Part shown: positions 20,458 to 59,996 of the stretch, one piece after another
Numbering within the stretch: position 1 is the stretch's first letter
Layout of the letters: each line of letters opens with the position of its first letter
DNA from: Datisca glomerata
Lineage: Eukaryota; Streptophyta; Magnoliopsida; Cucurbitales; Datiscaceae
Assembly (NCBI GenBank): GCA_003255025.1
Contig: QANY01007347.1
Span: 310,001-374,000, forward strand
Direction: 5' to 3'
Length of the DNA: 64,000 nt
The notes under the pieces: model-generated
Database searches by the model: none
What the model was told of the DNA's origin: nothing
Seen by the model: the letters and a program-made list of their open reading frames with translations, nothing else
Made by a program: the position numbers and the translations under genes

Positions 20458-20682
20458 GTAATAGTTAGTCAGGTTTTCTGGCATCGATAACCAATATATT
20501 AATATAAAAATTGTCTACCTATAATATATAGTGGCTATAATATATAGTGGCTTTAATAGAATCTTTGTCAGGTATGTATTTAAAAAAATACCCTTCTAAC
20601 ATCAAATAATATGAGTGGTCAAGGGACAATGTTACAAGTCAGATAAATTTTGCTTCTGAGAAGGTAGCTTTCTTATGTTTTT

Positions 20683-21354
20683 CAAATTCTCAGTTCATTT
20701 CTTAGTCGAGTTGCTGAAGCTCTCTTTCAGTCTAGAAATTACCACATTCCTCATGGTCTTCCTTCTTTGGCTGAAGATAGTTGGTCCTGGACTAAAAATA
20801 AGAATGGTTCTTTTTCTACTAGTTGCACTTATTTTGCTTTGTCCTCTCATCAAGAGCCTCTCCCTTGGTGTCACTTAGTTTTGTTTTCTAGGAACATTCC
20901 AAAATATGCTTTTATATTTTGGCTTGCTCTCCTCAACAAGCTCAACAACAAAGATAGAATCTCAAAGTCGTATCATGGGGTTAGTATGGAATGTGTATTT
21001 TGCATTGATGGAGATGAGTCTGTACATCATTTGTTTTGTGGTTGTCCCTTTTTTAGATTGATGCTTGAGCCTTTATTGGAGAGATGTGATAGATTCTCTC
21101 TTCCCATGACATGGAATGAGAGGATTTCTATTAAAAACACTAAGTCCTACTCTTTATTGAGTTGTAAGTTTATTATCTCTACTTTCATTTATTGCTTGTG
21201 GTTGGAAAGGAATATGAGGATCTTCATGGGTAAAATCATAGATTCCTCTCTCATCTCTAGGAAAACTGTTTATATGGTTAGGGAGAGATTAATTTTTCTT
21301 GATAAACATAGATCTTTCAACTTAGTTGATCATATATTAGAGAAATGGATGTAA
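20683..21354 (+). pseudogene. LINE polyprotein tail with RT zinc-binding domain (zf-RVT)
   Basis: The plus-strand frame is open for more than 200 codons and ends in a stop at 21354. It lacks a real start codon because it is the 5'-truncated tail of a LINE. The zinc-binding domain that follows plant non-LTR reverse transcriptases is clear. It runs from SWSWTKNKNGSFSTS, through RNIPKYAFIFWLALLNKLNN and KDRIS, to CVFCIDGDESVHHLFCGC, the C..C...H....C metal site. The tail includes IYCLWLERNMRIF, also typical. Five-prime truncation is what target-primed reverse transcription commonly leaves. It is one of the best preserved frames in the window and probably a fairly recent insertion. Confidence 0.9.
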
Positions 21355-32980: not shown

Positions 32981-35426
32981 CTACTTGCTACTCCTAGAAC
33001 AGGAAGCACGAATTGGGTTCTTGCATGTTTTCCGATTGTGACCAAATTGACCACAACGACCATACTTCACACATCGCCTAGTTTCGCATATAGAGGGAAC
33101 ACGTTGTTTCTTCGGTCTCCCAGCTGAACGTCTCACATCTAGAGGTAGTATCTTCAATTGACCTTCATCGTGAATATGTAAGATGCTCCAATTTTCTAAT
33201 GGGTGAACGACGCCTTTATAGGTTGAAGCATATTCTGTACTTGAAAAACAATCACTAACATATGAATATGAACTCAAATTTCGATTGCAAAGGACAACAC
33301 AAGCATGAGCACATGGGATATGATCCAAATCCCACCTCCGACAAGAACTCGTACGACTACTCAAGTTCAAAACATGCATGACACCACCATGGCTAACATG
33401 GAACTCATTTATATCATATGAACCAAACTGAAAATCCGTAAAAATAAGTTACACATAACCATTATGTTAAAATAAAACCATATAGTAACTAAATAAAATA
33501 CATGACACATAGCGATATAGTTCAAGCAACTATATACTCGTCCCTCAAATGTTCCTCAGGCGATGGTGTAAGCTTCATTTTCAGAAAAGATGCCACCATT
33601 CTACGCTCGTAAAACCACCTCAAACACATTTGATGTATAAATTTTAACAAACGTATGATAGAAAGTTCACGTGCTTTAACTAAAACATTATTAATACTTT
33701 TAAAGATGTTCGAGGTCCGCATGTTATACCACTTAGTAGGAAAATAAGCTCGTGCCCATCTAGGAAATCCAATTCCCTCTAAATAAGAATGAACACGTGG
33801 AGATATCTTATCCAAACTCCACATGTGACGCTCAAAGTCAGGCATAAGATAAGCCCTAACACATGCATAAAAAATGGGATAAATGCTATTCGGAAACTTA
33901 AACCTAGTCTTTATATTCTAACATAAATGGGACATGCATGCTCTGTGATGAGCATCAGATAAACCAATACTAATGGCCTTGGAAATACTAGTGTGTCTAT
34001 TAAAAACAATAACTAAATCAACAACATCTCCAATGCAATAATGCAACTTACGCATGAACCATATCCAAGAATCATCATTCTCTAAGTGAACTATAGCAAA
34101 TGCTAATGCAAAATTTGGTTGTAACCATCTAAAAAACAAGCAGTTAACAAAATACCCACATACTTTGCCTTTAAAAAATGCCATCAACCGATATGCATGG
34201 TCTACAGTGTCTCCACCCATCTAAGGACACAACATTAGACATAAAACAATACTTGAACCTCCAAGCAGAAGTCACTACATAATCGGTAACCGAACCTGAA
34301 ACAAAGCAATAAAAAGTAAAATAATAGTAACTAAACTATATGCTATATTTACTAAGTATAAGTAACTATGGATTGTTTTGGCAACGTATGATTTCATGCA
34401 ATGTTGTAAAAAATGAAGGAATGGCAACGTATTATTCTTCTGGAGACCACAAAACAATCCATAGCAATTTCTTTCCCACTCAAAGCTTTATGATAACTAA
34501 CATGGACACCATGTTTCGCACTCATGTGGTCAACAATCTCCTTTGGATGACTCTTTCGTAAGCAACTAGCCTTATAATTTTTCTTCAAACACTCACTGAT
34601 AATGATAGCATTAGCTTGCCTATGATCACTTTGTATAATATCTAATGAACAAGAATGTTCACTAGTATACTTCCTAACCATCCAAAAAAACACTATACCA
34701 AACACTCACTGATCACGATAGCACTAGCTTGCCTATGATCACTTTGTATAATATCTAATGAACAAGAATGTTCACTAGTATACTTCCTAACCATCCACAA
34801 AACACTATGCCTATACGTCGAAGCACGCAAATACCAACAACAAGAGTCATCAAGACATATTGCCACAAAACGATCACCATTAGACTTCTTCATCTTAAAT
34901 TCAAATTTATTTTTTAAAGAAACCACTTGAATTGCTTTCTCAACTCTACCTTACTACCAAACATATCTCCTTCCATAACATGAAAATCAGTTGGAACATT
35001 CTCCACATCAACGGTCTCAATAAAACGACAATTAGATGGTTGATCAACAAGAACATTGCTAATAGTAGAAACAACCGTGTCGACCCTAGAACAACTAGCA
35101 TTGGCCATAGTTGAAATTTATAAATATTGACCAATCTCGATAACTAATGGACAATAGACATTTTTTACAAAAGAAATAAACCATGAAATGTCACTATCAT
35201 CTTTCAACTCCAACACATTACAAGATGTCATCCTAACACCAAGAACAACCTTCATAACTATATTTTTTCATGTAGCAGACAAACATAATTCACGTATAAC
35301 CAAATATAATAGAACTCCAAATGTTGAATCCTCATCAACAAAACCTGGTTTTAATTTGTTATCCACATATGTATTGCTATCACACCACCTACCATCATAA
35401 AATAAAATAATAGGAACCTTTGACAT
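32981..35426 (-). pseudogene. Mutator-like element transposase (mudrA type)
   Basis: The minus-strand reading starts with VPIILFYDGRW near 35420, the usual opening of plant MULE transposases. It runs through LVIRELCL, an acidic segment at 34914-35108, and the MuDR DNA-binding domain (NKFEFKMKKSNGDRFVAICL, with DDSCCWYLRAS) at about 34790-34920. Part of the MULE catalytic region lies at 33918-34220, with a linker at 33522-33845. A SWIM zinc finger (CRRWDLDHIPCAHACVVL) lies near 33300 and a CCHC knuckle (CGQFGHNRKTC) near 33040, before a stop at 32981. Domain order and length (about 800 codons) are near complete, but stops, frameshifts and a 113-base internal duplication inactivate it. Living relatives cut and paste DNA flanked by terminal inverted repeats; none were identified here. 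Confidence 0.9.
34586..34811. repeat. 113-bp tandem duplication in the MULE transposase
   Basis: The segment coding for WMVRKYTSEHSCSLDIIQSD occurs twice in tandem, with starts at 34586 and 34699. The unit of 113 bases is not a multiple of three, so the duplication shifts the frame. Confidence 0.9.
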
Positions 35427-37082: not shown

Positions 37083-37401
37083 AAGGGGACTGCTTTCATT
37101 ATATCTTCCCTTGTACAAAACAGAAACTTCCAAAAATTATAAAAATTCGCAGATATCGAATATGATTTTTCTACGATGTATACTTCTTATCCGAAAATGA
37201 TTCATGGAACACAATTGATCCTAATATGGGTTTTAAATCTCAATATTATTCAGAACTATGCAATAAAATTTGTGGAACAAAAATTATGAGTTTACTGAAA
37301 GTTCAATCCGAATAACCACGTCTACATCTCGTGCCTCAAGCTCCGCTGCCTAGAGTTTAAGCCTTCTTAGATAATATCAGCCTTAGAGTAAGGGTGTTAC
37401 A
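37083..37401 (-). mobile_element. Gypsy LTR end (TGTAACACCC type)
   Basis: On the minus strand the block starts TGTAACACCC at 37401, a start common in chromovirus LTRs. It follows directly after the integrase C-terminus at 37494-37730, as a 3' LTR should. Part of it (GAGTTTAC(T/C)GAAAG...ATCCGAATAACCACGTCTAC...GCTGCCTAGAGTTT) is repeated at 41036-41103, and ACAAAACAGAAACTTCCAAAAA recurs at 38664. Confidence 0.65.
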
Positions 37402-37493
37402 TCCTACCATCCTTATATGAATTTTCATCCTAAAAAATTTATCGTGTTTATGTTTTAGAAGAGATACGGGTACATCGCTCGAATCTCATCCTC

Positions 37494-37730
37494 TCATTCC
37501 CATGTAGACTCTTCAAATTGATGGTTCTTCCAAAGTACCTTGACCAAGGGAATCTCCTTAATGCGTAACACTTGTGTCTTCCGATCAAGGATCTGAATCA
37601 GAATTTCTTTGTAAGTAAGATCTTCCCATAACTGGAGTGACTTATAACTAAGGATGTACGACGGGTCGAGAATGCACTCCCATAAGATAGAAGCTGGCCA
37701 ATTTCCGTTAGAGCTTGCCACCACACCCAT
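37494..37730 (-). pseudogene. Ty3-gypsy integrase C-terminus (chromodomain-like end)
   Basis: The frame reads ILDPSYILSYKSLQLWEDLT, then YKEILIQILDRKTQVLRIKE, then IPLVKVLWKNHQFEESTWE. The pattern D..H.L..E.L.....L.YEE.P..IL.R....LR...I..VKV.W.N....E.TWE is the very end of chromovirus (Tekay/Del-like) integrases. It is broken upstream. The element is minus-strand, with its LTR end next to it at 37401. Confidence 0.85.
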
Positions 37731-38599
37731 ATCAAAACAGAATTACCCATCATTAAGATTTATTAGTTTGTAAGGTACGTACATGTGACATTTCTCATGA
37801 GTACCATTACGCACCTTCAAAAATGTGGAACCAGTTGCAAATATGCCTTCCCACAAAACTAACCAGAAAAACATTCACAAATCCTCTCTCGAAGGATGAG
37901 GTAAGTCATAAACCTTTCCCAAAGGACAAGGCAACCAAAACTTAGTTGGTGGGTAAGTGACTCTAACGATATACAATACTTTACGTTACGTGGTCATACA
38001 CTAATAGTCTTTCATATCTTAGATCAGATTTCTTTACCAAGTTTCAGTATCATATAATATTATTATCATTATTAATGAAGTATAGCAGCATAACGAATAC
38101 ATCACAAAATAATAACCAAACAAGGGAAAGAGATCCGAATTTATTCTACGTTTTTAAGACACAGCAAGTAAACAAGCAGTTATATACGTAGGATTTCACT
38201 TTCCTGATCTTGCACTAAAGAAATTACGAAATTGAAACTCCTGAAGTCAAATAGCACTATTCTACTCAGTACAATACGGTATGCAAAAATGGAAACTAAC
38301 TTTAAGCGCTGACTCGGTAAAACCGACACAACTTAAACTAGGGTTTCCTAAAATTTCAAATTTCTTACATGCTGACCTTAAACATACCAGGGATTCACAT
38401 AATTAATTTCGTGATATTTTGAGGTGGATTGGTTATCAAAAAACGCGAAAACTAATTAGCCACATAAAACTAGTTTTTTTTCAAGTACCGCAGTATCATT
38501 CGAAAAATACGTTTCTGTACGCAAATCTTGTTGAAAAATTATGAAAATTTACAGAGTTACTAAAGATACTCTTAAAATATTACCGTAAAATATTTATAT
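37731..38599. other. Unassigned DNA, probably gypsy-derived
   Basis: No coding motif was seen. Its position between gypsy integrase and LTR-like DNA, and words such as CTAGGGTTTCC near 38340, suggest retrotransposon non-coding sequence. Confidence 0.3.
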
Positions 38600-39094
38600 C
38601 AAACCTAGTTGATCTCTATATAGAAACAACCCTAAATTTGGATATCGAAAAACTGATTTCCCCTATACAAAACAGAAACTTCCAAAAACTATAAAAATTG
38701 CAGAGATAAATTTTAATCTAGTTGTTCTACAGTACATGCTTCAATATATCCTAAAAATTTCAGATTCAAAATCCTTCGTCTGAAAATTCCAGTTTTTTTT
38801 ATGAAAAGTCAATGTTTAAAAAAAAATCTTATTTAAAAACGATTAATGGAACATTTTCAATCTTGTCTGAAATTTCCAGTTTCTTTCATATTCAAAAATG
38901 ATTAACCTTTTTAGATAATATGGCTCTTAGATGTGAACCAAAATATGAGATTGTAGTGTAAGAAGGTGTTGCACGAGAATTAAGGAGAGGGAGATGCCAA
39001 AATACAAATGGGAAGAGTGAGGGTGGTTTGTTTCTCACAAGGGAAGGGGAAAGGGTGATGCCTCACAAACACAAGGGAGGGGGAGAAAGTTGCC
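38600..39094 (-). mobile_element. Gypsy LTR fragment interrupted by a CACTA-type end
   Basis: The segment 38660-38700 repeats 37110-37140, and 38903-39094 is repeated at 41106-41293. In both copies the LTR-like DNA stops at GAGAAAGTTG and is followed at once by CCACTACTACAAAATAAGG, a CACTA-type terminus. Confidence 0.55.
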
Positions 39095-39381
39095 ACTACT
39101 ACAAAATAAGGTTTGATGATGGGTAAAAATCATCATTATAACCCTATATTGACGGCTGACCGATTGTCATCTACCAGGCTATCATCTTTAGTCATTTAAA
39201 AAAAATCATCAATATAGTGTACCGCAAAAAGTAAATAGATGATGGGGATTACCCGTCATCATAGGTGCAAGAAAAAGTAAATAGATGACGGGGATTCCCC
39301 GTCATTAAAGGTACCCTAAATCTTTTTAAAAAAATTATCATGGAAAGGCATTACCTTCCCATGACATCCCTTCAATTACCT
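39095..39381. mobile_element. CACTA-type terminus, copy 1
   Basis: CACTACTACAAAATAAGG begins the block and is followed by inverted motifs of the GATGACGGGGATTCCCCGTCAT type, repeated up to about 39310. This is the structure of a CACTA end with subterminal repeats. The block is repeated at 41294-41587. Confidence 0.75.
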
Positions 39382-40013
39382 AGAGTGGAGCTTAATTAAT
39401 CAACAAGCATCATCGTGAGGGAAATGAATCAATACGTCGAAAACTACTGAGTACTTACACAAAGTAAAGCTTGGAAGCCAGAAAACATAAAAAATGCATC
39501 ACAAGCAATGACCCAGACTACATAGTACATACTTTGCGGACTTTTCAACCTATAAGATATAACAACCTAAAATTAATAATGCAAGGTTATTTAAAGAACC
39601 TTAAAGGCATAGATGTATAGCCAAAATATTAAGCCTCGACGAAATTAATCAGATGAAAGATTGTAAATAATAATGTTTGACTAAAATAAGTAAACAATTA
39701 CAATATATGTTTTTATAGGAAATATAAACAATAAATCCATCAAATCATGCATTTATCTATAAGAAAAGAAAAAGCGATGAAATAATGCAACAGAACTGCA
39801 ATTCTTAGATAAAAAAGTAGACTTCTCAACAGAACTTAAATTAGTAGATGATCAATTTCCATAAAATCTACAGTAACCTTTATCGCCAACTTATAATTTA
39901 TATGGAATGAGTAATGAGCTTTTAAAAATTCTACTACAATGGTCTGTAGATCATACAATAGTCTGAAGCATATACAATGATCAGTAGATCAAACAGTAGA
40001 CTGAAGCAAATAC
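39382..40013. other. Interior of the CACTA-associated block
   Basis: AT-rich non-coding DNA with no motif seen. It lies between the CACTA-type terminus and EDM2-like exons, so it may be intron or untranslated sequence carried along with them. It is missing from copy 2 at 41.1-41.7 kb. Confidence 0.4.
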
Positions 40014-40118
40014 CTCAGCACCTGAAGATTTATCATAGAAGACTAATTCCCCGCAAGCAAAGCACTGATGTTGTTTAAACTGATAATTCTTTTGGAAAAA
40101 ATCCTTCTCCTCCATTGC
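40014..40118 (-). pseudogene. EDM2-like PHD-region exon fragment
   Basis: On the minus strand, a 105-base stretch of exactly 35 codons lies between an acceptor (TTATTATGGCAG) and a donor (GTATTTGC). It reads MEEKDFFQKNYQFKQHQCFA followed by CGELVFYDKSSGAE. The YKQHQCFACG.LGSSDK..GAE segment is characteristic of EDM2, a plant nuclear protein with PHD-like fingers that controls heterochromatin and transposon silencing. No stop is present. The GSS of the family reads VFY here, which may be decay. Only this and the exon at 40210 remain, so it is a gene fragment beside a CACTA-type end, likely captured or a remnant gene. Confidence 0.7.
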
Positions 40119-40209
40119 CTGCCATAATAAGAAAGGGTTTATGTGCTAAGTAGCTTTAAACTGAACAAGGTATATAAGTAGTGACAAAATAAAATGATAG
40201 ACATCGTAC

Positions 40210-40309
40210 CTTTACTTCATCCTTAGAAAATCCAAGAGATAAACGTAAGGATTCTTCACCGTCCTTTTCAGTTGGATGGAACGACCTCAGGGACCTCCCT
40301 TCACAGCTA
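40210..40309 (-). pseudogene. EDM2-like exon fragment, preceding exon
   Basis: A 100-base open stretch lies on the minus strand between an AAG acceptor and a GTACGA donor. It reads SCEGRSLRSFHPTEKDGEES and then LRLSLGFSKDEVK. It matches the C.G.C.RSFH.T..DG.ES.C.SLGFT.DEV block that directly precedes the next exon in EDM2-type proteins. Two cysteines of the PHD-like finger appear changed (Ser or Arg), a sign of decay. The intron between the two exons is about 90 bases, a normal plant size. Confidence 0.7.
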
Positions 40310-40739
40310 CTTCAAATCAAATAACAACTTTATGCAAGTTTGTATATAAATTAATCAGAGTAATTATGATCAAGTATTTCTTTCTTAAAAAATATTGAAA
40401 CATTTAAAGATATCCTCAAGAAGTTAACACAAAAAAGTTGTCAAGATTGGCAGGAGGAGACGTGAACAGAATATGTCATGTTCTTATAGAAAATCTGCAT
40501 ATATGAGATATGCCCTATTACAGAAAAAGCAATCTGACACGTAATGAAAACTTAACCAATAAAACCAACTTGAATAAAGCCCTACAGTTGGAACTTGGAG
40601 CAATATCACAATCTATAGTTTCCAATAAAGAAATGAGATGAAAGCACTAATTAGAAGTAACATGATCTAATCCAAGATGTTGGTAAAGCGACTTAAAATA
40701 ATGATATCAGATACTTCAACACGCATGATTGGATGGGAA

Positions 40740-40960
40740 ACAATTATTAGGGAGGGGGAGAGAGAGAAACAGAGTGGACGAGGAGAGAGAGAGAAAGAGA
40801 GAGAGGTATCATCTTTCTTAAAATAGAAGCAATACTAGTTCAAAAACCTCGAAGATTAGACTAAACTCATACAGAAAACAGAAGGGAAGACCCCTACATG
40901 AGAGCATTATTTAATGCATATGTGAAATTTAAACTTTACCACTTACCCGCCTTCAGGTGA
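40740..40960. repeat. Segmental duplication unit (copy 1, right part) with (GA)n
   Basis: A GA-rich microsatellite (40757-40806) is followed by GGTATCATCTTTCTTAAAATAG and about 150 further bases. That block is repeated almost perfectly at 41592-41740. In copy 2 it is joined directly to the CACTA-type terminus. Confidence 0.85.
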
Positions 40961-41035
40961 AATTTTAACTATACAATAAAACATGTGAAACAAAAATGAT
41001 ATTATTTATGTTGAAAGAAAACAAGAATAACATGA

Positions 41036-41740
41036 GTTTACCGAAAGTGTGATCCGAATAACCACGTCTACGTATTGTGCCTCAACCGTCGCTGCCTAGA
41101 GTTTTAACCTTTTTAGATAATATGGCTCTTAGATGTGAACCAAAATATGAGATTGTAGTGTAAGAAGGTGTTGCACGAGAATTAAGGAGAGGGAGATGCC
41201 AAAATACAATTGGGAAGAGTGAGGGTGGTTTGTTTCTCACAAGGGAGGGGGAAAAGGTGATGCCTCACAAACACAAGGGGTGGGGAGAAAGTTGCCACTA
41301 CTACAAAATAAGGTTTGATGATGGGTAAAAATCATCATTATAACCATATATTGACGGTTGACCGATTGTCATCTACCAGGCTATCATCTTTAGTCATTTA
41401 AAAAAAAATCATCAATATAGGGTACCGCAAAAAGTAACTAGATGACGGGGATTACCCGTCATCATAGGTGCCAGAAAAAGTAAATGGATGACGGGGATTC
41501 CCCGTCTTTAACGGTACCCTAAATCTTTTTTAAAAAACTATCATGGAAAGGCATTACCTTCCCATGACATCCCTTCAATTACCTAGAGAGAGAGAGGTAT
41601 CATCTCTCTTAAAATAGAAGCAATACTATTTCAAAAACCTCGAAGATTAGACTAAACTCATACAGAAAACAGAAGGGAAGACCCCTACATGAGAGCATTA
41701 TTTAATGCATATGTGAAATTTAAACTTTACCACTTACCCA
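41036..41740. repeat. Segmental duplication, copy 2, with internal deletion
   Basis: 41106-41587 repeats 38903-39381 (LTR piece plus CACTA-type terminus), and 41588-41740 repeats 40797-40958. The 1.4 kb in between, including the EDM2-like exons, is missing. The join lies in a GAG/GAGAGA context present at both edges in copy 1. 41036-41103 repeats gypsy LTR sequence at 37288-37360. Confidence 0.9.
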
Positions 41741-41854
41741 CCTTGAGGAATAAAAAGTGCATCACCTGCATGAAGAACAACCTTTTGTTAATACTCCATT
41801 TAGCTTTTTGCTCTAGGATGAATTAAATACTCAGGGTCTTCTAAAGCAACAGAA
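41738..41854 (-). pseudogene. JmjC-domain protein exon fragment
   Basis: On the minus strand a 117-base exon-like stretch lies between TTTGGCAG and a strong donor, GTAAGT. It reads SVALEDPEYLIHPRAKS, a stop, MEY, a stop, then QKVVLHAGDALFIPQG. The L.AGDALFIP.GW block is the second strand motif of JmjC/cupin oxygenases (2-oxoglutarate, Fe(II)), and the Pro-Gly usually precedes the distal metal ligand region. Two stop codons make it non-functional. It shares strand and neighbourhood with the EDM2-like exons, as if both pieces were moved by the same element. The exact JmjC subfamily is not clear. Confidence 0.6.
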
Positions 41855-41933
41855 CTGCCAAAGAATAAAAGTTAAATATATATATATATATAAAATTAAT
41901 GTCTTAAATAAAAATGAAGAACAAGAAACCCTT

Positions 41934-42470
41934 TTGTTAGATTTAATTAGCAAAATTAAAAATCCAAAATTAAAACAAGAATACCTTGAAAGACTTTTAA
42001 TTCTGAAGAAAGAAAATACTGAGTCTAATAATAATAATACTCCAAGTCATTCACAAACTCTTGAAAATTCAACAGGGTTAAAGAGAAATAAAAGGAAGTT
42101 ACCTTACAGGAACTTCAAAAAGAAATTAAAAAATTAAAATAGAAAAAAAAGAATTAAGAAATTCTAACACATATATAAAGGAAGAATTAAACCTTTTAAA
42201 AATAGAAAATCTAATTAATAAACAAGAATCCAGTGAACTAGGAGAACCTAGTAAATTTATAATTTCTGATAATGAGGCTGAAGAACCCATTATCACCAAT
42301 CAAAATGATGAACACTTCATGCAAATCCTCAATCACATCAAAATAAAAATGGCACATAATGTTTGAATAATCATTCGAGATTTTGATTTTACAACAATGG
42401 CTCTAGTTGATTCAGGAGCAGATTTAAGTCCTCACAAGACAAATTCAATACATTACTTTAAAACATTGTT
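41934..42470 (+). pseudogene. Pararetrovirus-like pol fragment with aspartic protease motif
   Basis: Plus-strand frames code first for a Lys/Asn/Glu-rich region (41934-42137). After frameshifts comes a segment reading KFIISDNEAEEPIITNQ, followed by IIRDFDFTTMALVDSGADLS at 42370-42432. The DSGA at 42409-42420 is the catalytic motif of retroviral-type aspartic proteases. The neighbourhood and style suit the protease of endogenous caulimovirus-like elements, though a gypsy source cannot be excluded. It is on the opposite strand from the RT and dioxygenase-like pieces further right, so the insertion is rearranged. Several frameshifts; non-functional. Confidence 0.6.
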
Positions 42471-42624
42471 TGTGTAAGTTTTTAACCTGGTTTTGATACC
42501 AAAATATATAAAGCAATTAGAGAGGGGGGTATTAAGATGCAAGAAGATAAACAGTAAAAAATATATTAAAAACAATCATTACAAAATCTGTATTGAGGTG
42601 TAAGATTAAAAACTTACACAAACA
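42467..42624. repeat. 19-bp perfect inverted repeat flanking 120 bp
   Basis: TGTTTGTGTAAGTTTTTAA at 42467-42485 is the exact reverse complement of 42606-42624. The enclosed 120 bases contain the primer-site-like word at 42490. It may be a hairpin of the leader, or the scar of a head-to-head join of two copies. Confidence 0.85.
42490..42501 (-). promoter_or_regulatory. Primer-binding-site-like word (tRNA-Met type)
   Basis: On the minus strand the word is TGGTATCAAAAC, which matches 10 of 12 bases of the TGGTATCAGAGC site used by caulimoviruses and copia elements. It lies about 310 bases downstream of the TATA-like box at 42813 on the same strand. Confidence 0.5.
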
Positions 42625-42812
42625 GTATTTTATTGGGCAACAATTAAATAGTGATCCCGCTCACTATTTGGATCAATATTTAATGTTGAAGAAAAAAAAT
42701 ATTTACAAAAGAGGAGAAGAAGAAGAAAGCTTTGTTTCACAAAACATGTTTTAGCTCTCAAATAGTTAAAAGTTATGAAAACTAGTTTTGATGAACAAAT
42801 GGGAGAGACTAC

Positions 42813-42822
42813 CTATTTATAG
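42813..42822 (-). promoter_or_regulatory. TATA-like box, minus strand
   Basis: On the minus strand the word is CTATAAATAG followed by a pyrimidine-rich segment (CTTTCTTCTTCTTCTC at about 42725), as in many plant and pararetrovirus promoters. It is downstream of the dioxygenase-like frame and upstream of the primer-site-like word, the expected place for a pregenomic promoter. Confidence 0.5.
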
Positions 42823-43336
42823 CCAAGGAAAGTGGAGTTCACCGAGAATCCATCACTTACCTGAACTATTCTATTCTACAAAAGTAAAAATATTTTACAT
42901 TTCTACTTTTGTCTACTTTGACTAAGAATAGAAAAAAGCATAAATAGTTACCTAATTATTTGACAACTAGTACAATTATTACAAAAAATGACAAATTATA
43001 AAGATTCCTTGATAATTGTTATCTTGGTCTTCGTGTCTGTCATGATTATTGTTGTTGAAAGTCATTGTGATTGTTTGTTGCATGTTGAATTTCCTCGATA
43101 ATTGCTATCTTAGATTTTTGTGATTGTTGCTTTACTTTGGTGGTGGTATTGTCGTTGATCCTTGATAATTATTATTTTGGACTTTTGTGGCTTGATTGTT
43201 GATCATAATTATTTAAAGATATGACCTTTGCTTGTGCTTTGGTGTCACCATAATACATCTTCAAAATTATTTGATTTTGATTTATTTAAATGTTGGCGTT
43301 TTGCCAAGGATAAATTCTTTTGTTCATTTACCACTG

Positions 43337-44640
43337 AGATCAATATTATTGAATGGGTTCTTCAATTGCTGAGCAGTAACCTTTCTGGATGATTGATCCT
43401 TTTGGTTTAATTTGGTGACTTGAATCTGTAGATAATTCAAAGTTATTATCGTCTTCTAAAAGGAGAAGCATTTTTTAGATTAATTTTTTTCTCCAATTTG
43501 GTTTTTGGATTCGTGGCCTTTGATTTACCCTTTGAAGATGGTATTGATTTTGTTATGGATTCAGATTTGGATAGATTTAGACTGGATGGTTTGATTTATG
43601 GATCTGGGTGAATGGGCTCATTAATTTTTAATGGAACTTGGATAAAAGGATTTGCTAGTCTCATAATGGGATGGACACTTACAAATTCATAATTGATGGA
43701 CGCAATTATTTTACGGGTACTCAACTTATCTCACCATTTAACATAATATTCTCTGGTGAGGATTCCATTTTCAATCGAGTATTCTCATTTCAAAATCCAA
43801 GGTATTTTATATTTTTTTGAAAAAAAAGTACTTGGGGAAAGGAGACTTCAATCGGTGGGGGCTTGTAAACCTTTAAAAATAAATTGAAATATTGTTGTAA
43901 ATCAATTAGAAAAAGTTCTAAGGTAAGACCATAATGGACCACCATTTTAAGAAATAATTTGGAAAATCAATTTTGAAAGTGTTATTAAAATTTAAAAACT
44001 AAAAGTGAGAGATATCACTGTTTTGATGTAAGAAAATCATGTGCCATGCATCAATATAGTTAAAATAATTATATTATTTTTTATTTAAAATTATTTTGGA
44101 ACTTGAAAGATGCATTCTCCAATCCCTCATAGTTATGATTCTGAGGATAGAGAAAGAATGGTAAATGATTCTTTTCTCAGAATTCTAATTGGGCTAATTT
44201 TTATGAATTTTGTTTCTAAGAGAATGTCTCTATAGAAATTAAGATTTTGTTATTATGTCCAGGGATATAGTGAAATTTAGGAATGAAATGGGCTTCGGCA
44301 ATTTGAGCAGGATCCTTCAAATGAGTAAATGTAGGCTCAATATGAAAGAGCATTTCACTGGCCATTTTTTGAAAATCAAATGATGATTTCTTGTATTTTG
44401 AAATTGATTGGGCATCAAAGGATATTGAGAATGAGTCAAATTGGTTAACCACGGTTGATTGTTGATTGGGTCTGTCGGACCCAAGTATTGTTGATTGGGT
44501 CTGTCGGACCCAAGTATTGTTGATTGGGCTCGGTTAGGAGTAGAAGACTCCTCTTTGATTTGGGCCTTAAGGGCCAATTGAGTCAAAGACTCCTATTTTT
44601 TAACCAGTCATCATTTCACATGTTTGCTAAAAGTGATATC
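43337..44640 (-). pseudogene. C-terminal part of the dioxygenase-like viral ORF
   Basis: Minus-strand frames continue from the AlkB-like segment. One covers 44216-44586 (ALKAQIKEESSTPNRAQS; then MASEMLFHIEP and FIPKFHYIPGH in a shifted frame). Another covers about 43480-43735 (NYEFVSVHPIMRLANPFIQV, then PLKINEPIHP). The last reads VTKLNQKDQSSRKVTAQQLK and ends in a stop near 43337. The long, weakly interrupted coding potential on one strand suggests one ORF of several hundred codons. I do not recognise a domain in this part. A 29-base tandem repeat (44458-44531) lies inside. Confidence 0.5.
44458..44531. repeat. 29-bp tandem repeat
   Basis: The unit GTTGATTGGGTCTGTCGGAC plus nine bases starts at 44461 and 44490, with a diverged third copy from 44519. 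The length is not a multiple of three, so it shifts the frame of the surrounding ORF. Confidence 0.9.
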
Positions 44641-44643
44641 GAT

Positions 44644-45285
44644 TCTTTTCGTTAAGGATTCAACTGCATGCCTATGATCTTTTTGAAAAATTCTTTGATT
44701 GATTTATTTAGAAATTCAATTTTAAATATTACTTGTCCCAAAAGGTTCACAGTTAAAATTTCTCTGTTATCATAACGTATTTTATTATCTTTGTGAAAAC
44801 CTATTTTTCCGCCATTTTCATACCATTGAATTAATGTTGCATTGAAGTCATGCTTCAACACAATATCTTCTAAAATTTTATCAAATTCATCAATCCAGTC
44901 ATTTCTTGGATATTCAAATAATCTATGACCATAATTAATGGATGAGATTTTTGAGCACTGCCCTGCCATTGAGTTTCTTGATTTTAATAGAACTTTGGTT
45001 GAGTATTTTAGGCTCTACCTTTCCATATTCTAGTAGGCCAGATTCCTTAAATTGCTCAATTGCAGAATCTTGGTATGATTTCCTACAAAACATTACAAGT
45101 AAGGGAGTCAAGAGTTTAATTATTGATAAATTGAATATTGAAATCAAAATTACTAAAACTAGATTGTTACCTGGCAAAACTTTACTTGGAATTAATTTCA
45201 AAACAAATTGTATGATTTGATCAATTATTTTAATAATGAAATAATAAAATTGAAATCCTAGAAATCTATTCTTAGATTGAAACAA
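44644..45285 (-). pseudogene. AlkB-like 2OG-Fe(II) dioxygenase domain, broken, in a pararetrovirus-like locus
   Basis: Minus-strand frames show the parts of an AlkB-type oxygenase in the right order. The frame 44935-45285 ends with SIKIKKLNGRA, like the NGR.A entry of viral AlkB domains. The frame 44652-44969 has FNATLIQWYENGGKIGFHKD, with metal ligands His at 44793-44795 and Asp two residues on, then NREILTVNLLG. A third frame at 44638-44676 has RHAVESLTKRIDITF, with the distal His at 44668-44670 and an Arg at 44644-44646 where 2-oxoglutarate is bound. In living relatives this domain removes methyl groups from nucleic acid, and it occurs in replicases of some plant RNA viruses. Here two frame changes break it. 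Its source virus is not certain. Confidence 0.65.
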
Positions 45286-45500
45286 TTTTATTTTTTTCTC
45301 AAAAGATAACTAAACTATCATGTTTTATTAGTTTGACAAATAACTAAACTATCATTATTTATCATTATTTCCAGTATTTGTTTAACACATTTGCTAATGC
45401 AAACAATCAAGAAATGTAACTAGTATTGTTTAATATGAATATTATTAATGCAGACAATCAAAAAATTAGTAAATTGATTAAATATTTTATTCATAATATT

Positions 45501-45745
45501 TTAGAATTCACTAGGAGCATTCTTAAGCCCAAAGGGCATTACATTCCATTCATAATGGTCAAACGGGGTTACAAATGTAGTTTTGTTAATTAAATCTTTT
45601 TTGTTTGGTATTGAATATTGTATCCATTCCAAGACATTATTAAGGGGTTTATAATCGATCATTAAACGAGGAACTCCTTGTTCAATTTCACTGGCCTTTT
45701 GTATATAAAAAGCTGAGCATGACCAATGAGACTTTCTCAAAGCAT
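45501..45745 (-). pseudogene. Pararetrovirus-like reverse transcriptase fragment
   Basis: The frame carries the RT opening GVPRLMIDYKPLN, a short middle with IPNKKDLIN, and the block FVTPFDHYEWNVMPFGLKNA. The style (Y.W.VMPFGLKNAP, P.L..NYK.LN) fits Caulimoviridae and their endogenous copies better than plant gypsy elements (VDYR.LN, ...FGLTNAP). The segment with the first catalytic Asp is deleted between the blocks, and the YVDD box is absent. It is joined in frame on its N-terminal side to a copia integrase pre-domain. Confidence 0.7.
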
Positions 45746-46013
45746 CATTCTTTGTTAACCTGTTTAATCTATATAGATTAATATATCCCAACCCAAGATG
45801 TCATAGATACGTGCCATCATCATTATGAGAAACTCTTTTTCGTTTGTTACTTTTATGATTTGCTACTTTAAACAATTCAGAATTATTTAACACATGTTCA
45901 GTCAGTTTAAGCATATATAGCCCGTTCAAAAACTTTAGCATGACAAATATTGAATCCATTCTTTGAAATAAAAGATTGGTTATTAATAAAAGAAATATCA
46001 AATAATTGTTCAT
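45746..46013 (-). pseudogene. Copia A2 integrase pre-domain (gag_pre-integrs)
   Basis: Minus-strand frames read KSNKRKRVSHNDDGTYL, then after a frameshift LGYINLYRLNRLTKNDAL. The pattern YLWH.RLGHIN..R...L...G.L is the zinc-binding pre-integrase segment of copia polyproteins. It continues from the protease at 46039-46266. After it the copia sequence stops and pararetrovirus-like RT begins. Confidence 0.75.
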
Positions 46014-46038
46014 GTAGTAACGTTAAAGAAATCAAATT

Positions 46039-46266
46039 TCAAGAAAAACTAGGAATAAAATAAATATTGATCAAAACAAGAAATTTATTTCCAAAGCTTA
46101 AATCGACTTTCTTAAATGCTTTTGCTGACACGAGCACACCACTGCCAATTCTCACTATCACCTCACCATCAGGTCGTTCCCTTGATGAATCAAGCATCTG
46201 TAAAAAAGAACATACATGGTTAGTGGCTCCTAAATCCAGTATACAAGATGACAAATCATATTCCAC
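46039..46266 (-). pseudogene. Copia A2 aspartic protease
   Basis: The frame reads CILDLGATNHVCSFLQMLDS, then SRERPDGEVIVRIGSGVLVS and AKAFKKVDLSFGNKFLVLIN. This is the copia protease block, with the canonical DSGATNH changed to DLGATNH; the catalytic Asp is retained. The upstream side of the same frame contains KKIGKYDLLVLEG, the usual linker after the zinc knuckle. Confidence 0.85.
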
Positions 46267-46339
46267 TAAATATCCTTCAAGTACAAGTAAATCATATTTA
46301 CCTATCTTTTTCAGCTCGAAGATATACTTATTACAGTTT

Positions 46340-46850
46340 CTCTTCCATTGACCTTCAACTCCTTAATGGAAACATTTTCCCTTGGTTCTTTCTTTTTGGA
46401 GTTGTTGTCTTTCTTGTTCTTCTTGGACTTTAAGTGATTTCTTGGCTTTCTTTCTTTTCTTATTCTTACTTTTGTCCTTATAATTGTTCTTCTTCATTTT
46501 GTTAATATTCACAATAGTGAAAGAAGGTTTTTGCTCAACAACATTTGCCGCACCCTTTTAGGTCATACTCTTGTTGAGCAACCCAAAAGTCTGTTGTTCA
46601 TTCAACATGGGGTTTTGTTGAATTGTAACTTGTACATAACATCAATGGTAGCTCCTGAATCTATGATCCAGGCATCATATTTGTCCCGAACATTTTTCGG
46701 GGCATCGTCAGCAAGCTTTTCAGAACATTCCTTAGTAAGGACAAACTTGTGGTTCTCACATATTAGCATTAAATTCAAATTTGATTTTCATCTTATAATG
46801 TTATCACCATTGAGTTTTATGAGTGCAAGAAAAGCAGAAATTGGGTAGCA
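46340..46850 (-). pseudogene. Copia A2 gag and zinc-knuckle remnant
   Basis: Minus-strand frames read NLNLMLICENHKFVLTKECS, then DDAPKNVRDKYDAWI, a typical copia gag start. After internal deletions come VVEQKPSFTIVNINKMKK, a Lys/Asn-rich tract, and a degraded knuckle (WKRNC) near 46345. Between the gag pieces the frame shows IIDSGATIDV, which looks like a misplaced protease word and may reflect a rearrangement. Confidence 0.7.
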
Positions 46851-48788: not shown

Positions 48789-50393
48789 TGTTAGAATTTG
48801 CGGTGACGTGCGACGGAAGGCGTGGTGGTGTTTATTAAAATGATATGAAATAATAAATGATTGCATCGTTACATATCTCAAAGATTTTAAATTTTAAATT
48901 GTATAATAGTGTAGTGCCACACGACAATGTAGTGTGTCATGATGAGTCATATTGCCTCATAGCACTGTAGTTTCAAGGCACCACTGTAGTGCCGTAAGTG
49001 ACTACAGTGTACCACGTCCCACTATAGTGACACGTGACACTACAGTAGTCCATGTCAATCTCTGATTCAAAATCAGTTATTAACATTGTGCAGTCCCACA
49101 TGCCACGTGGTAATTTCTTCAAATTTATTATTTATTTTAATTAGATAAATATCTATAAAATAGTTATTCAAAAATTAACTTATCTGATCATCTCTATCAA
49201 CTAACTTATATGTTAGTTCAAACAACATATTTACGTGATTCAAAATTTGAATTATTATCCCCTAATAATTGAATATTATATAATTTCATAAATTTGATAT
49301 TTTGTCTCACTTATCGATTAACACAAAATTAATTGATATTATTATTTCATAAATTTGATATTTTGTCTCACTTATCGATTAACACAAAATTAATTGATAT
49401 TATTATTTCATCAATTTGATATATTTGTCTCACATATATAATTATCTTATAATTATATACTTGCCTCAGAAATATAATTCATTTTTCAAGTTAATCCTTT
49501 TTTCATGTCCTGAAATATTCACACCCTATACTGTGTAGTACAGAGGTGAGTTGATGACCATGGACCTATTATCCTAAGCTCCAATAAACTAAATTATTAA
49601 TTAAACTCTTTAATTAAATAATCTTATTTATTAAATTTATTATTAGTCCACTATAAATATCGAATTGCACTCTTAGAGATTACATAATATATCTACAGAG
49701 TATTCTCGTGTAGTCCATTGGTATAATCATTCCATGTAGTTTTTGTCCTCTAATTATTAGTTCGTAAATTAGAACTAGTCAAAATTATCATTTTATCCTT
49801 CTAATTACCTCTTAATCCTTAAGTACCATTAATTCATAGTGAATGGCTAATTTATAATCGTATTATAAATTTGAGCTCATAATTATTCAATTCTAGAATT
49901 AACACCTAAGGGAACTAATATACGATCCATAAGGAAAACTATGATTCCAAATCTTGTAAGATCATGTTCCCAACCATTCATATCACTAAATCTCCAAAAC
50001 AAAAGTCACTAACCTATTTTACAAACAAACCTTAATGAGTAAATCAAAAGATCCAATAGACATCCATAGGAGTTCATGATTACTCATGATTCAGACCGAT
50101 CTACATATGATCATTAGATTGATGTGTATTAAATTTTATGATAAACGATAAGTAAATAATGATATTAATCAATATCGGTCATATCGTATATAATCTTATT
50201 ATATAAAGTACAATCACTAAGATGCGTATCCATATCAATGATCCAGATCTAGATCACATGCATTCATAATGCTTAGTGAACCGTACTAGCAACCATTCAT
50301 TAAAAATTTCATACTTTAATATGTTGTTGACAATTTTATTCATTATCTATGACCTTAATCCTCCCATACTTATACAAGATCATAGTCTCATTC
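48789..50393 (-). mobile_element. Copia family A LTR (5' LTR of A2, outer end missing)
   Basis: The block starts TGTTAGAATTTGCGGTGACG and runs parallel to 1034-2590, including the palindromic minisatellite and all major words. It stops at CATAGTCTCATT (50393), about 150 bases short of the outer end present in A1, and is joined there to RT of copia family B. Confidence 0.85.
49282..49433. repeat. 61-bp tandem repeat in LTR A2
   Basis: The unit starting CATAAATTTGATATTTTGTC begins at 49287 and 49348, with a partial third copy at 49409. It is not present in the A1 LTR, so it arose after the copies separated. Confidence 0.9.
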
Positions 50394-56289: not shown

Positions 56290-57045
56290 GAAATAATTCC
56301 AATAGCTGCAATATGCTCTGGATTTCTAACTCTGAGACACACCTCCTAAATATTCTATCAGAGTCTTGCATGTAAAGATATGGATCAACTCAATAGAAAG
56401 CTTTTTTACCTACTGGAAAAACCTCTTCAATCATTGTGAATCCAGCTCTCGGGGAAGAACTCCACTTTCTAACTAGTTGGCTATGTCAGCATACCAAAGA
56501 TCCTTAACAATTGAAATTGCTAGTAACTACTCATCTGGGAAGGTCTCTGCTATAGTTGAGTCAGCTAGTCTAGAAAAGTGATTCGTTACTTGGTTCTCAC
56601 TTCCCTTCTTATCTTTGATCTGTAGGTCAAATTCTTGTAAAAACAACATCCACTTAATAAGCTGAGGCTTGGCATCTTTCTTTGAGATCAGATATTTAAT
56701 TGCAGATTGGTTAGTGAAAATAGTTACCTTCGTACCAATTAAATATGCTCTAAACTTATCAAATGCAAAAACTATAGCTAAGAACTCATCATCAGTAGTA
56801 GTTTAATTCAATTATGCCTCAAATAGAGTTTTACTTGAATAATAAATAAAGTGGGAGACCTTACCTTTTCTTTTCCCTAACAATGCTCCTATAGCATAAT
56901 CTCTTGCATAACACATAAGCTTAAATGGCAGCCCCCAATCAGGTGCTACTATAATAAGTGTTGTCACTAATGCCTTTTTCACCTCAAGGAAAGCATTCAT
57001 ACATTCATAAAAAAAATCAAAAGTCCTATTATTTTCAAAGAGCAT
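56290..57045 (-). pseudogene. Gypsy D2 RNase H and following segment
   Basis: The frame 56812-57045 reads LFENNRTFDFFYECMNAFLE, then VKKALVTTLIIVAPDWGLPF and DYAIGALLGKRKGKVSHFIY, the start of the RNase H domain of Athila/Tat-type gypsy elements. Lower coordinates hold further degraded RNase H with no long frame. Confidence 0.85.
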
Positions 57046-57700
57046 GCATAAAAGTTTAAATTTTTTAAAAATTATTTAATGAACCTTCTATAGAATCATG
57101 CATCACCTAAAAAACTCCTAATTCCTTTTACTGAGCTAGGTGCATGGAGCTTTTCAATGACTTCTATTTTAGCTTTATCCACTTATATTCCTTTTAATGA
57201 GACTCTATGTCCTAAGACTATTCCTTCTTGGACCATGAAATGACATTTTTCCTAGTTTAAAACTAAATTGGTCTCTTGACATCTTTCAAGCACTTTTTCG
57301 AGATTAGACAGGCAGTTTAAGTATGATTCACCAAAGACAGAAAAATCATCCATGAAATACTCCATATCAGCCAGCCTATCAAGCATTTGGTCAATGAAAA
57401 GTAGGGTAAAGTGGTCTTCTTTTGGTATCTTTATTCATCTTTCTATAATCCATACACACTCTCTATCCAGTTACTATCCTTGTGGGGATCAATTCATTTA
57501 TTTTATTTGTTATAACAATAACTCCACCTGTCTTGGGAACACACTGGACAAGACTCACCCATACACTATTAGAAATGGGATAAATTATACATGCATCAAG
57601 CCATTTGATGATCTCCTTCTTAACAACCTCCTTCATTATTGGATTCAACCTCCTTCACTATTTTACGAAGTTGTTACTTCCCTTTTCTAGCAGTATCTTA
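57046..57700 (-). pseudogene. Gypsy D2 reverse transcriptase
   Basis: The frame at 57463-57648 reads LNPIMKEVVKKEII-like sequence with KWLDACIIYPISNSVWVSLV, then QCVPKTGGVIVITNKINELI and PTRIVTG. This is the RT N-terminus of Athila/Tat elements (AGIIYPISDS.WVSPVQ.VPKKGG). The core RT blocks at 57050-57450 are present only as scattered pieces with stops. Confidence 0.85.
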
Positions 57701-58291
57701 TGCATACAGATTGAAGGGCCTATCCCTTTGATGCCAACCATTGTAAGCCAATTGCTCTTTTATACTTCTCCAGAACTTCTAACAATAATTGCTCATTTTC
57801 ATGGCTTAGGGAGGATGAAATAATGATAGGCAGTGTACTATTTTTACCCAAATAGGCATGCTTCAAATGGGCAGGAAGGGGTTTCAATTCAAGCAAAGGG
57901 AAAGATTCAACAGAAGGTGGTGGTGGTTTAAATGTTCTCTCAGATAATTCTAAGAACTCAATTTGCTTACCACATCTAAAATTGTCCTACCTTGCATCCA
58001 TCCATGTAACTTCATTTTCCGCCTCATCATTATAGTCTTCATCAATATTTTTCAAAGTTTACTCTGGCTGGGTAGCATTGCTACAACTTATGTACATCTT
58101 CTCCATCATTATAGAATCCATCCATATACAACTGCACATTCTTCTATCCCCTCCGTTTTACACATCAATTACTACCCTTCCTATAGCTAGGAAGGGTCTT
58201 CCCAATATGATGGGCACTTCCTATATGCCTCATAGTCTATAATGATGAAATCAGTTGGAATTATGAATTTGTTAACTTGTACCAAAACATC

Positions 58292-58522
58292 CTATATCTT
58301 ACCCTCTGGGTAGACATAAGACCTATCAGCTAATTGCAGAGTGATAGTGGTTGGCCTCGTTTCTCCTATTTCCAACTTTCTGAATATGGACAATGGCATG
58401 AGGTTATTACCAACTTCTGAGTCACAAAGGGCTCTTCCACAATATGTTTTCCCGATTTCAGATGTAATGGAGAAACTCCCTAGATCCTTCAACTTTAGGG
58501 GAATCTCATTTTGCAAAATCAT
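58292..58522 (-). pseudogene. Gypsy D2 aspartic protease
   Basis: The frame reads KLKDLGSFSITSEIGKTYCG, then RALCDSEVGNNLMPLSIFRK and GETRPTTITLQLADRSYVYP. The family motif CDLGASINLMPLS is changed to CDSEVGNNLMPLS; the Asp is kept but the Gly-Ala pair is disturbed. Confidence 0.85.
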
Positions 58523-59316
58523 GCTGCACTCTTAGGTTAAGGCTACTGTTTTGAACTCTCCAAGCCTTCTTCTCTTGGTCAAAATATTTGTCATAAACTT
58601 GATATAGTTTGGCATCTGTTGTAAAACCTCTACCAATGGTATGTTTATGTGTAGCTACTTTAATATGTCAAGGAATTGAGTAAACTGACCGTCTAGCTTT
58701 TTTTTTTTTCAGTCGTTGAGGGAATGGTGGCAAAGGCTTTCCACATCTTTTACTCACTGTTACAGCCATGGATGCTACAATAAATGGTGCTATAGTAGAA
58801 GTCTCTGTTATAAGTGCTTTGAGTTACTTCCTTGGTTCTCTCTACAGTCTTATCTTCTATTCTATCAGCAGGTTGAGTTGCCATTTTTCCACTCCTCAAA
58901 TGTATTGCTTTGTGGAGTTCTTTCCCTTATCTTCTCGGGTTTTTGGTATTACTTGGCAAAGCTCATTGAGGTCTTGAATTCAATGTATTGGCTAACTGTT
59001 TAACCTGATTCTCTAAATTTCTCAGAGATACTACTTGACTTTGGATCATTGCGGATTGATTTTTAATTAATGATTCATTCTTCATGAAGTATTCCTTCAA
59101 AAGATGTTTTAAAGTACCAGATTTCTTAGATGTTGCTTGCTTCTGCCCTTGTGCTTACTGGGAAAAACTAGGAGGACATGCTGGTTTTTTTTTGTGCATT
59201 TGAGGGGCCTGTACTTCGATTGTTCCAAGAGAAATTTGGGTGTTGCCTCCAACCACGATTGTATATATTGGAGTAGGGGTTGTTATTGCTATTTCTTATG
59301 AAATTACGTACATAAT
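58523..59316 (-). other. Gypsy D2 gag C-terminal region, decayed
   Basis: Between protease and the gag core the minus strand has no long open frame. Short plus-strand frames (58716-59003) overlap and look like chance. By position this is gag C-terminus and linker. Confidence 0.45.
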
Positions 59317-59794
59317 TCACATATGCCAGATTTTCAGGGCAACTCTCAAATAATTGTTCTTCACCACAGCAAGATCATTCCAACTGTTGATAGACTCTGG
59401 AGGTAGTGAATTGATCCATGCTCTAGCTCTATCCCTTAAGAAGTAGGGAAGCAGACTCATCCTTAGAACATCCTCTAAAGCTCCAGGTATCTTGAAAGCA
59501 TCACTAACCTCCATAAAAAGTCTCAAATGTAGGTGAGGGTCTTTAGTGGGCAGTCCATTGAATTGCCAAATAGTTTTACATCTGGAACATCACATGCTTC
59601 AATTTCAATTGTAGAGCTCGAATCTCTACCCTCACTATTCCAAGCTTCATCGCTTGTGGTTGGAGAATGGCATAGTCATTAATTACTCTATCTTTGGCAT
59701 AATCCATGACTATTACGTTGTTTCCATTGATAGCTAAATTGCCATTGTGATTCCTGTTATCATTCAACACAACCTCTTCACCAGGTGCAACCAT
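59317..59794 (-). pseudogene. Gypsy D2 gag
   Basis: The frame 59576-59794 (MVAPGEEVVL, later NDYAILQPQAMKLGIVRVEI) is the N-terminus. The frame 59317-59526 (RLFMEVSDAFKIPGALEDVL, then FLRDRARAWINSLPPESINS) is the retrotransposon gag core typical of Athila/Tat elements. A frameshift near 59550 separates them. Confidence 0.9.
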
Positions 59795-59996
59795 ATCTCT
59801 GACAACAAATAGTCATCTTGCTCTCTTCTTAATCGTCTCAAGGTTATGTCTATTTCTGGATCAAAGATGAAGTCAAGTATTTACTGCCTGTGCATATAAT
59901 AAATCTCACTTTCCTGTAACAGAGAATGCTAAAACTCAGTAATGAAGCATACAAATTAAATTCAAATTGATATGAGTAAAGATATAATATCTTTAG

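Follow-up and report, generated by a model that had tools for sequence, protein, structure and literature searches.

A decayed florendovirus-type endogenous pararetrovirus with an AlkB-type domain in Datisca glomerata, probably the RT-deficient partner of a two-part virus

AlkB domains have been reported so far from plant RNA viruses and from one Gypsy lineage. A 64,000-nucleotide stretch of Datisca glomerata DNA (hereafter the window) raised the question of what an AlkB-type dioxygenase is doing beside the reverse transcriptase (RT) of a pararetrovirus-like locus, as a preliminary description made from the sequence had proposed. In the reading that we consider probable, the locus derives by decay from an AlkB-carrying endogenous pararetrovirus of florendovirus type, of which it is a fragment; the AlkB element of this family resembles the RT-deficient half of a virus in two parts, replication being supplied by RT-bearing elements. 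If this is true, AlkB would, as far as our searches reach, have been unknown from any DNA/RT virus until now.

The window contains 85 ORFs of at least 75 aa, of which 76 were scanned, nine overlapping or low-complexity ORFs being omitted. The profile PF13532 (2OG-FeII_Oxy_2), which the preliminary description had suggested searching, matched a single one, i.e. the minus-strand frame 45014-44655 (120 aa), taken alone (E=6.3e-6, 27 bits, profile positions 66-136 of 194), at a score under the gathering score of 31.2. NCBIfam AlkB models gave a weak match to the same stretch (E=0.1). An NGR was found in the frame upstream of 45014-44655 (the same was found in 1.6 % of shuffles), and HAVESLTKRIDITF, the distal His/Arg motif, in a different frame just downstream. 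A pattern modelled on this C-terminal motif occurred in 0.04 % of dinucleotide shuffles (0.2 % for a looser version) and in 1 of 710 window stretches, presumably the motif itself; the motif patterns used in the shuffle tests were fitted after the sequence had been seen. Neither flanking AlkB piece had a Pfam match when scanned alone. According to PF13532, the motifs and the alignment with related copies, the AlkB (2OG/Fe(II) dioxygenase) domain covers 44614..45093 on the minus strand and is broken over three frames by deletions and stops, with HxD at 44795-44787, the distal His at 44670 and the 2OG-binding Arg at 44646 (all minus strand). The motifs are thus present in three minus-strand frames as first described, from the profile match, NGR and HAVESLTKRIDITF, but their spacing is not the correct one that had been claimed: about 42 codons separate HxD from the distal His, vs 55 in L082 (the reference to which the other copies align), and the window copy has lost bases in this interval. 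The motif set is likewise not full, given that HxD, the distal His and the first Arg are kept and that the second Arg of RxxxxxR, an Arg in 51 of 58 related copies, is a Ser in the window. A single-sequence structure model of the window frame reached a pLDDT of 38 only, and the best solved-structure match for a related AlkB copy was a weak one to ALKBH8 (E=0.22).

This domain is framed on both sides by pararetrovirus sequence of the same strand, since RT and RNase H remains precede it and an ORF2-like stretch follows, which bears out the pararetrovirus-like character initially attributed to the locus. The caulimovirid RT remnant (45330..45734, minus strand) was delimited by blastx to caulimovirid polyproteins (31-65 % identity), alignment with P0003 and three-frame translation. 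Its middle part is missing, PFGLKNAP is kept and YxDD is lost, and it is better preserved than in the related AlkB copies described below, with 53-65 % identity to its closest relatives. It is followed on the same strand by an RT thumb/connection piece (45160..45300; blastx, 33-59 % identity to relatives) and by an RNase H C-terminal stub whose N-terminal part is missing (45119..45199), recognised with an HMM of the relatives' C-termini (nodes 202-228 of 248, i-E 5e-6 in a three-frame search). Beyond AlkB lies a florendovirus-type ORF2-like segment (43933..44500, minus strand), in which 44500-44184 matches residues 953-1057 of the Prunus protein P0017, in the part following RNase H there (E 4e-10), and 44163-43933 matches P0035 weakly (E 0.3). 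The label ORF2 comes from position, by apparent homology to the post-RNase H part of the Prunus protein, and the florendovirus-type assignment of the element is taken from its architecture and the literature.

With the RT piece and the AlkB frame as a joint query (X at stops), the best matches were caulimovirid polyproteins (E down to 1.8e-36) from Vitis, Prunus, Rhododendron, Carya, Salix and others, many of them with PF01107, PF22909 and PF24925 (movement-protein and coat domains); integrase-bearing (Gypsy-type) proteins appeared only from E 2.4e-8, and PF13532 was listed in none of the 55 matches. At about 45735, the RT piece is joined directly to a copia fragment (45735-46362, minus strand) with Pol_BBD, which is GAG-pre-integrase-like by eye. 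In inverted orientation, the family is present a second time (41856..42427, plus strand), as a fragment with the end of the coat protein region and the start of the aspartic protease (blastx to P0005, residues 1044-1215, and to P0009), whose positions 41888-42427 match related loci. About 60 bp separate the end of this fragment from the tRNA-Met site on the minus strand, the two fragments forming a compound, inverted insertion.

Both the TATA box and the tRNA-Met primer site named in the preliminary description were recovered on the minus strand. The distance of the TATA box CTATAAATA (42814..42822) from the primer site is close to that in an RT-bearing copy. The primer binding site TGGTATCAAAACCAGG (42486..42501, i.e. 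42501-42486 in reading direction) agrees in 14 of 16 bases with the site quoted in the accessible part of PMC13308828, a match that by itself is at chance level, as 26 of 100 shuffles match with at most three mismatches. The window site is supported because L143, an RT-bearing copy of the same genome, has a TATA box and a similar primer site (three mismatches) at a similar spacing, i.e. 336 nt against 321 nt in the window. The intergenic/promoter/leader region (42515..43073, minus strand) is 82 % identical to that of L143 over 567 bp. A primer site with at most three mismatches was found after ORF2 in none of 60 AlkB loci, most of these stretches being expected to end short of it.

A search for PF13532 in the window's own genome (678 Mb) yielded at least 129 matches at E<=1e-3, a lower bound since 150 of 427 candidates were scored. 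By eye, about 121 of these look like one repeat series and eight like host or other genes (C760, C888, C906, C385 and C366). Sixty of the 121 repeat copies, mostly better scoring ones, were analysed together with seven control stretches, with flanks of 1.5 kb, at four other AlkB places. Similarity to endogenous caulimovirids was present at 60/60 AlkB copies vs 0/7 controls, and the window DNA likewise aligned to all 60 loci and to no control. Same-strand ORF1 similarity was found upstream in 55 copies, ORF2 similarity downstream in 58 and both in 53; at 50 of the 60 loci, the RNase H stub, AlkB and part of ORF2 are covered by one and the same alignment, of 71-80 % identity. The PF13532 match in the window is significant, and the relatives of the window copy do not stand alone in host genes or RNA-virus-like insertions, all 60 having caulimovirid sequence; the RT beside them, expected in the first description to be that of a caulimovirus, is a degenerate remnant. 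The AlkB loci of the same genome that were compared include no close match to the AlkB of the element (best E 0.7).

PF13532 was above the cut-off in all four AlkB-bearing open frames of related copies that were scanned (up to 1.7e-11). In the alignment, the family keeps the H and D of HxD in 60/60 and 58/60 copies, the distal His in 60/60, the first Arg in 57/59 and the second in 51/58; fixed-pattern counts are lower (HxD 55/60, HAV 47/60, RxxxxxR 45/60), and such residue counts are biased because the copies were found by an AlkB profile. In one copy, a degenerate RT, the RNase H stub, AlkB and ORF2 sequence follow one another in an open frame of 902 codons. To judge from sequence, AlkB in these florendovirus-type elements follows the RNase H stub and precedes the ORF2-like part. 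The earlier proposal of a second ORF for AlkB is refined in that, in at least one copy, AlkB shares one open frame with these two parts. That AlkB might be the end of an ORF of its own was rejected as the frame runs past it in open relatives, and a simple replacement of RNase H by AlkB was rejected as the RNase H C-terminal stub precedes AlkB in the window and in 21 of the 60 copies (blastx rule). Nor was it supported that the ordinary florendovirus ORF2 is an unrecognised AlkB, since two RT-bearing copies, P0017 and P0035 have ORF2-like sequence without AlkB.

Movement protein similarity was seen beyond AlkB in 3/60 loci (L105, L110 and L114), the fetched stretches beginning downstream of the place of the movement protein. 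A pair of oppositely oriented AlkB copies, within about 1 kb of each other, occurs at L134 (with L145).

The RT of these elements has lost its catalytic signature. YxDD and PFGLKNAP occur in 0/60 AlkB copies, and FDMKSGFW and NYKPLN in 2/60 each; the counts among 37 related polyproteins (P0003-P0039, themselves found by RT similarity) are 37, 37, 31 and 35, respectively. RT similarity was detected upstream of AlkB in 54/60 loci, so that the absence of motifs is uninformative in six. The N-terminal part of RNase H was found on the AlkB strand in 0/60 copies; one locus has it on the opposite strand, in a neighbouring RT-bearing copy. In a midpoint-rooted tree, the window falls among the more diverged copies, whose RT remnants share 34-58 % identity with P0005; in a large young cluster most remnants reach 26-36 % (46-51 % in L087, L109 and L116; several loci have no value). 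As RT remnants are less degraded among the diverged copies than in the young cluster, RT decay in AlkB elements may have proceeded step by step.

AlkB evolved under purifying selection. Among 31 stop-free copies, its median dN/dS falls from 0.53 at dS<0.1 to 0.21 at dS>0.5, and deep pairs of all 60 copies with stops masked give 0.23; the pairs compared are not independent. Neutral simulation with kappa 4-8 (observed kappa about 5.8) gave median dN/dS values of 0.53-0.66, with 2.5 % limits of about 0.30-0.42. Set against this simulated range, older AlkB change was constrained and recent change (0.47-0.53) is near neutral, as for fossils. Deep-pair values for the other regions were 0.22 for the protease, 0.31 for the coat region, 0.39 for the RNase H stub and linker, 0.41 for ORF2 and 0.44 for the RT remnant, the coat and protease regions being aligned in 48 and 49 of the 60 copies. 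Overall, the RT remnant (0.44-0.57) is close to, and slightly below, the neutral medians, with 0.28-0.39 in six young pairs and 0.56-0.85 in four deeper pairs of stop-free copies; it is not cleanly neutral and may be under some constraint. Profile-based sampling of copies biases dN/dS less than it does residue counts. Nearest-neighbour AlkB copies differ by a median of 7 %, and terminal branches of the tree measure 0.014-0.31 substitutions per site. With a substitution rate of about 6.5e-9 per site per year, these branches roughly correspond to a few to tens of millions of years.

Potential partners exist in the same genome, where the best 150 of 13301 candidates, a lower bound, match RT at 73-88 % identity, many with stops. 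By identity to P0005, the RT-bearing copies among these best 150 seemingly fall into two groups (about 77-88 % and 73-76 %), and many members of the second have long open frames. The two RT-bearing copies read across RNase H and ORF2, L142 and L143, both lack AlkB, with gaps of 134 and 67 nt between RNase H and ORF2. L143 shares with the window the above-mentioned 82 % of intergenic identity and only about 65-70 % in ORF2 stretches; intergenic identity is 86 % over 390 bp for L107. Past the ORF2 of an RT-bearing copy, short blocks of 45-89 bp reach 93-98 % identity to AlkB copies (L118). At L118 and L142, an AlkB copy and an RT-bearing copy were observed in tandem on the same strand. AlkB/RT pairs at most 10 kb apart number at least 10 vs 0.53 expected under a uniform null that ignores insertion hot spots; this count used 120 of the 121 AlkB rows (one on C767 omitted) and RT rows taken by eye on shared contigs.

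Such a pairing has a precedent. In the accessible part of Geering et al. 2014 (PMC4241990), the florendoviruses VvinBV, VvinDV and OsatBV are proposed to be bipartite, component A having RT and component B having neither RT nor the N-terminal part of RNase H, with a C-terminal end homologous to ORF2; the components have a common intergenic region and sometimes form compound insertions. The AlkB element resembles component B, as described there, in lacking RT function and the RNase H N-terminal part, in its ORF2-like C-terminal part, and in having a companion RT-bearing element, a common intergenic region and compound insertions. Unlike component B, it has an AlkB domain separating the RNase H stub from ORF2 and retains a degenerate RT stretch, and its intergenic identity to the RT-bearing element is 82 % vs the more than 90 % reported for grape components (PMC4241990). 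For VvinDV component B, CAULIFINDER is stated in the excerpted text of PMC9719215 to have found only the movement protein and a zinc finger. The puzzling component B thereby gains a possible reason to exist.

What AlkB might contribute can be proposed from its chemistry. AlkB enzymes remove N-methyl groups in an Fe(II)/2OG-dependent reaction, and the pregenomic RNA of pararetroviruses, being transcribed by host Pol II, is open to host methylation. In the two-part organisation that we envisage, the AlkB element (coat protein, protease, dead RT, RNase H stub, AlkB and ORF2-like region) would be accompanied by an RT-bearing partner. Its AlkB protein would be freed from the polyprotein by the viral protease and would strip viral pregenomic RNA of N-methyl groups (m6A, m1A or m3C) in an Fe(II)/2OG-dependent manner, before this RNA is translated, packaged or copied; the partner's RT would copy the AlkB element itself. 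We give roughly even chances to the full division of labour, i.e. one DNA with RT and another in which RT is dying within an open frame and AlkB is selected as an RNA demethylase, acting as an eraser on pregenomic RNA (or on m1A of the tRNA-Met primer). A selectively kept AlkB in a DNA/RT virus suggests that host RNA methylation mattered to pararetroviruses too, and many natural copies are available for measuring the age, selection and activity of the domain.

The absence of YxDD and of the RNase H front from all 60 copies would equally be expected of a satellite, i.e. a non-autonomous parasite of the RT-bearing virus that uses RT in trans and keeps AlkB for its own benefit. The promoter region common to the AlkB element and the RT-bearing copy, the co-location of AlkB and RT, and RT-bearing copies with full RNase H and ORF2 and without AlkB also fit this explanation, which we regard as a possible, though less probable, one: a pure parasite has no need of the coat and protease regions, which persist in most copies (48 and 49 of 60) with dN/dS below neutral (0.31 and 0.22). 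The non-catalytic alternative accepts an AlkB-like fold and gives it another role, e.g. RNA binding; enzymatic activity is a prediction and the second Arg is not kept in 7/58 copies, but the Fe(II) and 2OG residues are nearly invariant, and we consider such a role unlikely.

The remaining explanations do without a viral AlkB altogether. The high copy number in one genome, and a protein database holding no AlkB relative at the lengths searched, would suit an AlkB that entered one endogenous copy post-integration, the chimera then being multiplied by host duplication or transposition without ever having been viral. Deep pairs (dS>0.5) at dN/dS 0.21, which need long constrained protein evolution, nearest neighbours differing by a median of 7 % and a TATA box and primer site still recognisable in the window make this history very unlikely. 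AlkB is known from plant RNA-virus replicases (accessible part of PMC544882), so that chance resemblance, or an RNA-virus fragment lying beside a pararetrovirus by accident, had to be considered; with same-strand pararetrovirus neighbours on both sides in 53/60 copies, it is in effect refuted. The RT-deficient partner of a two-part virus thus remains our preferred reading.

This element can be set beside the known carriers of AlkB. In the available part of PMC9289625, Alphaflexiviridae, Betaflexiviridae and Closteroviridae are named as such. Like flexivirus and closterovirus replicases, the present element has AlkB in a plant virus polyprotein with HxD, H and RxxxxxR, a likeness by motifs; these families differ, according to the excerpts, in being RNA viruses with AlkB inside the replicase. 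The same source (PMC9289625) describes a Phalaenopsis Ty3/Gypsy element with an ALKBH5-like ORF2, whose m6A demethylation was shown in vitro. Both are reverse-transcribing plant elements that acquired an AlkB-family demethylase domain, but the orchid element, as presented there, is a 25-kb LTR retrotransposon with its RT domain in ORF1 and an AlkB nested among Arabidopsis ALKBH5 homologs, whereas ours is a pararetrovirus with a dead RT and no close match to the compared AlkB loci of its own genome. Wollendovirus WolV1 (PMC13308828), likewise an endogenous caulimovirid, combines its polyprotein with another protein whose function is unknown and has a tRNA-Met site; it differs in that no AlkB is named in the accessible text.

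Against the protein database (candidates of about 66-210 and 231-735 aa), the AlkB frame alone retrieved nothing at E<=0.01, and it had no match among the 37 caulimovirid-type polyproteins (best E 1.6). As no AlkB was seen in database polyproteins, the trait may be a peculiarity of this host lineage. Scans of viral contigs and genome contigs with AlkB, RT and primer site found no relative, the 73 contigs with a primer site showing no similarity better than E 0.13, and phage and plasmid records gave no match. In line with the preliminary description, which knew of no AlkB assignment in a DNA/RT virus, no report of AlkB in Caulimoviridae was found in the open-licence full-text literature, outside of which most subscription papers lie. 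The word AlkB does not occur in the accessible parts of PMC13308828, PMC10377300 and PMC4241990. In their available portions, PMC12846519 assigns AlkB-like demethylases, as a countermeasure, to RNA viruses and lists different factors for DNA viruses, and PMC12786077 names only the orchid Gypsy case. The screen of 121 angiosperm genomes in PMC9289625, as excerpted, found the domain only in Phalaenopsis; an RT-dead AlkB element could have escaped it because RT was its marker. More generally, RT-marker screens could overlook such elements.

The window is otherwise plant-like, with 33 % GC and copia, Gypsy-type and MULE-type domains. By our reading of the placements, a 228-codon frame at 20668-21351 (plus strand) resembles the zinc-binding end of a LINE RT, a MULE transposase with a SWIM finger lies in pieces at 32984-34950 (minus strand), and a Gypsy element in pieces occupies 56530-59812 (minus strand); the RNase H matches at 56.5-57.1 kb are taken to belong to the latter. 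Several pairs of direct repeats at 37286-41748, with lengths of 300, 191, 162 and 102 nt and 83-98 % identity, point to a small mobile element nested there, and a 61-bp tandem duplication of 98 % identity is found at 49279-49400.
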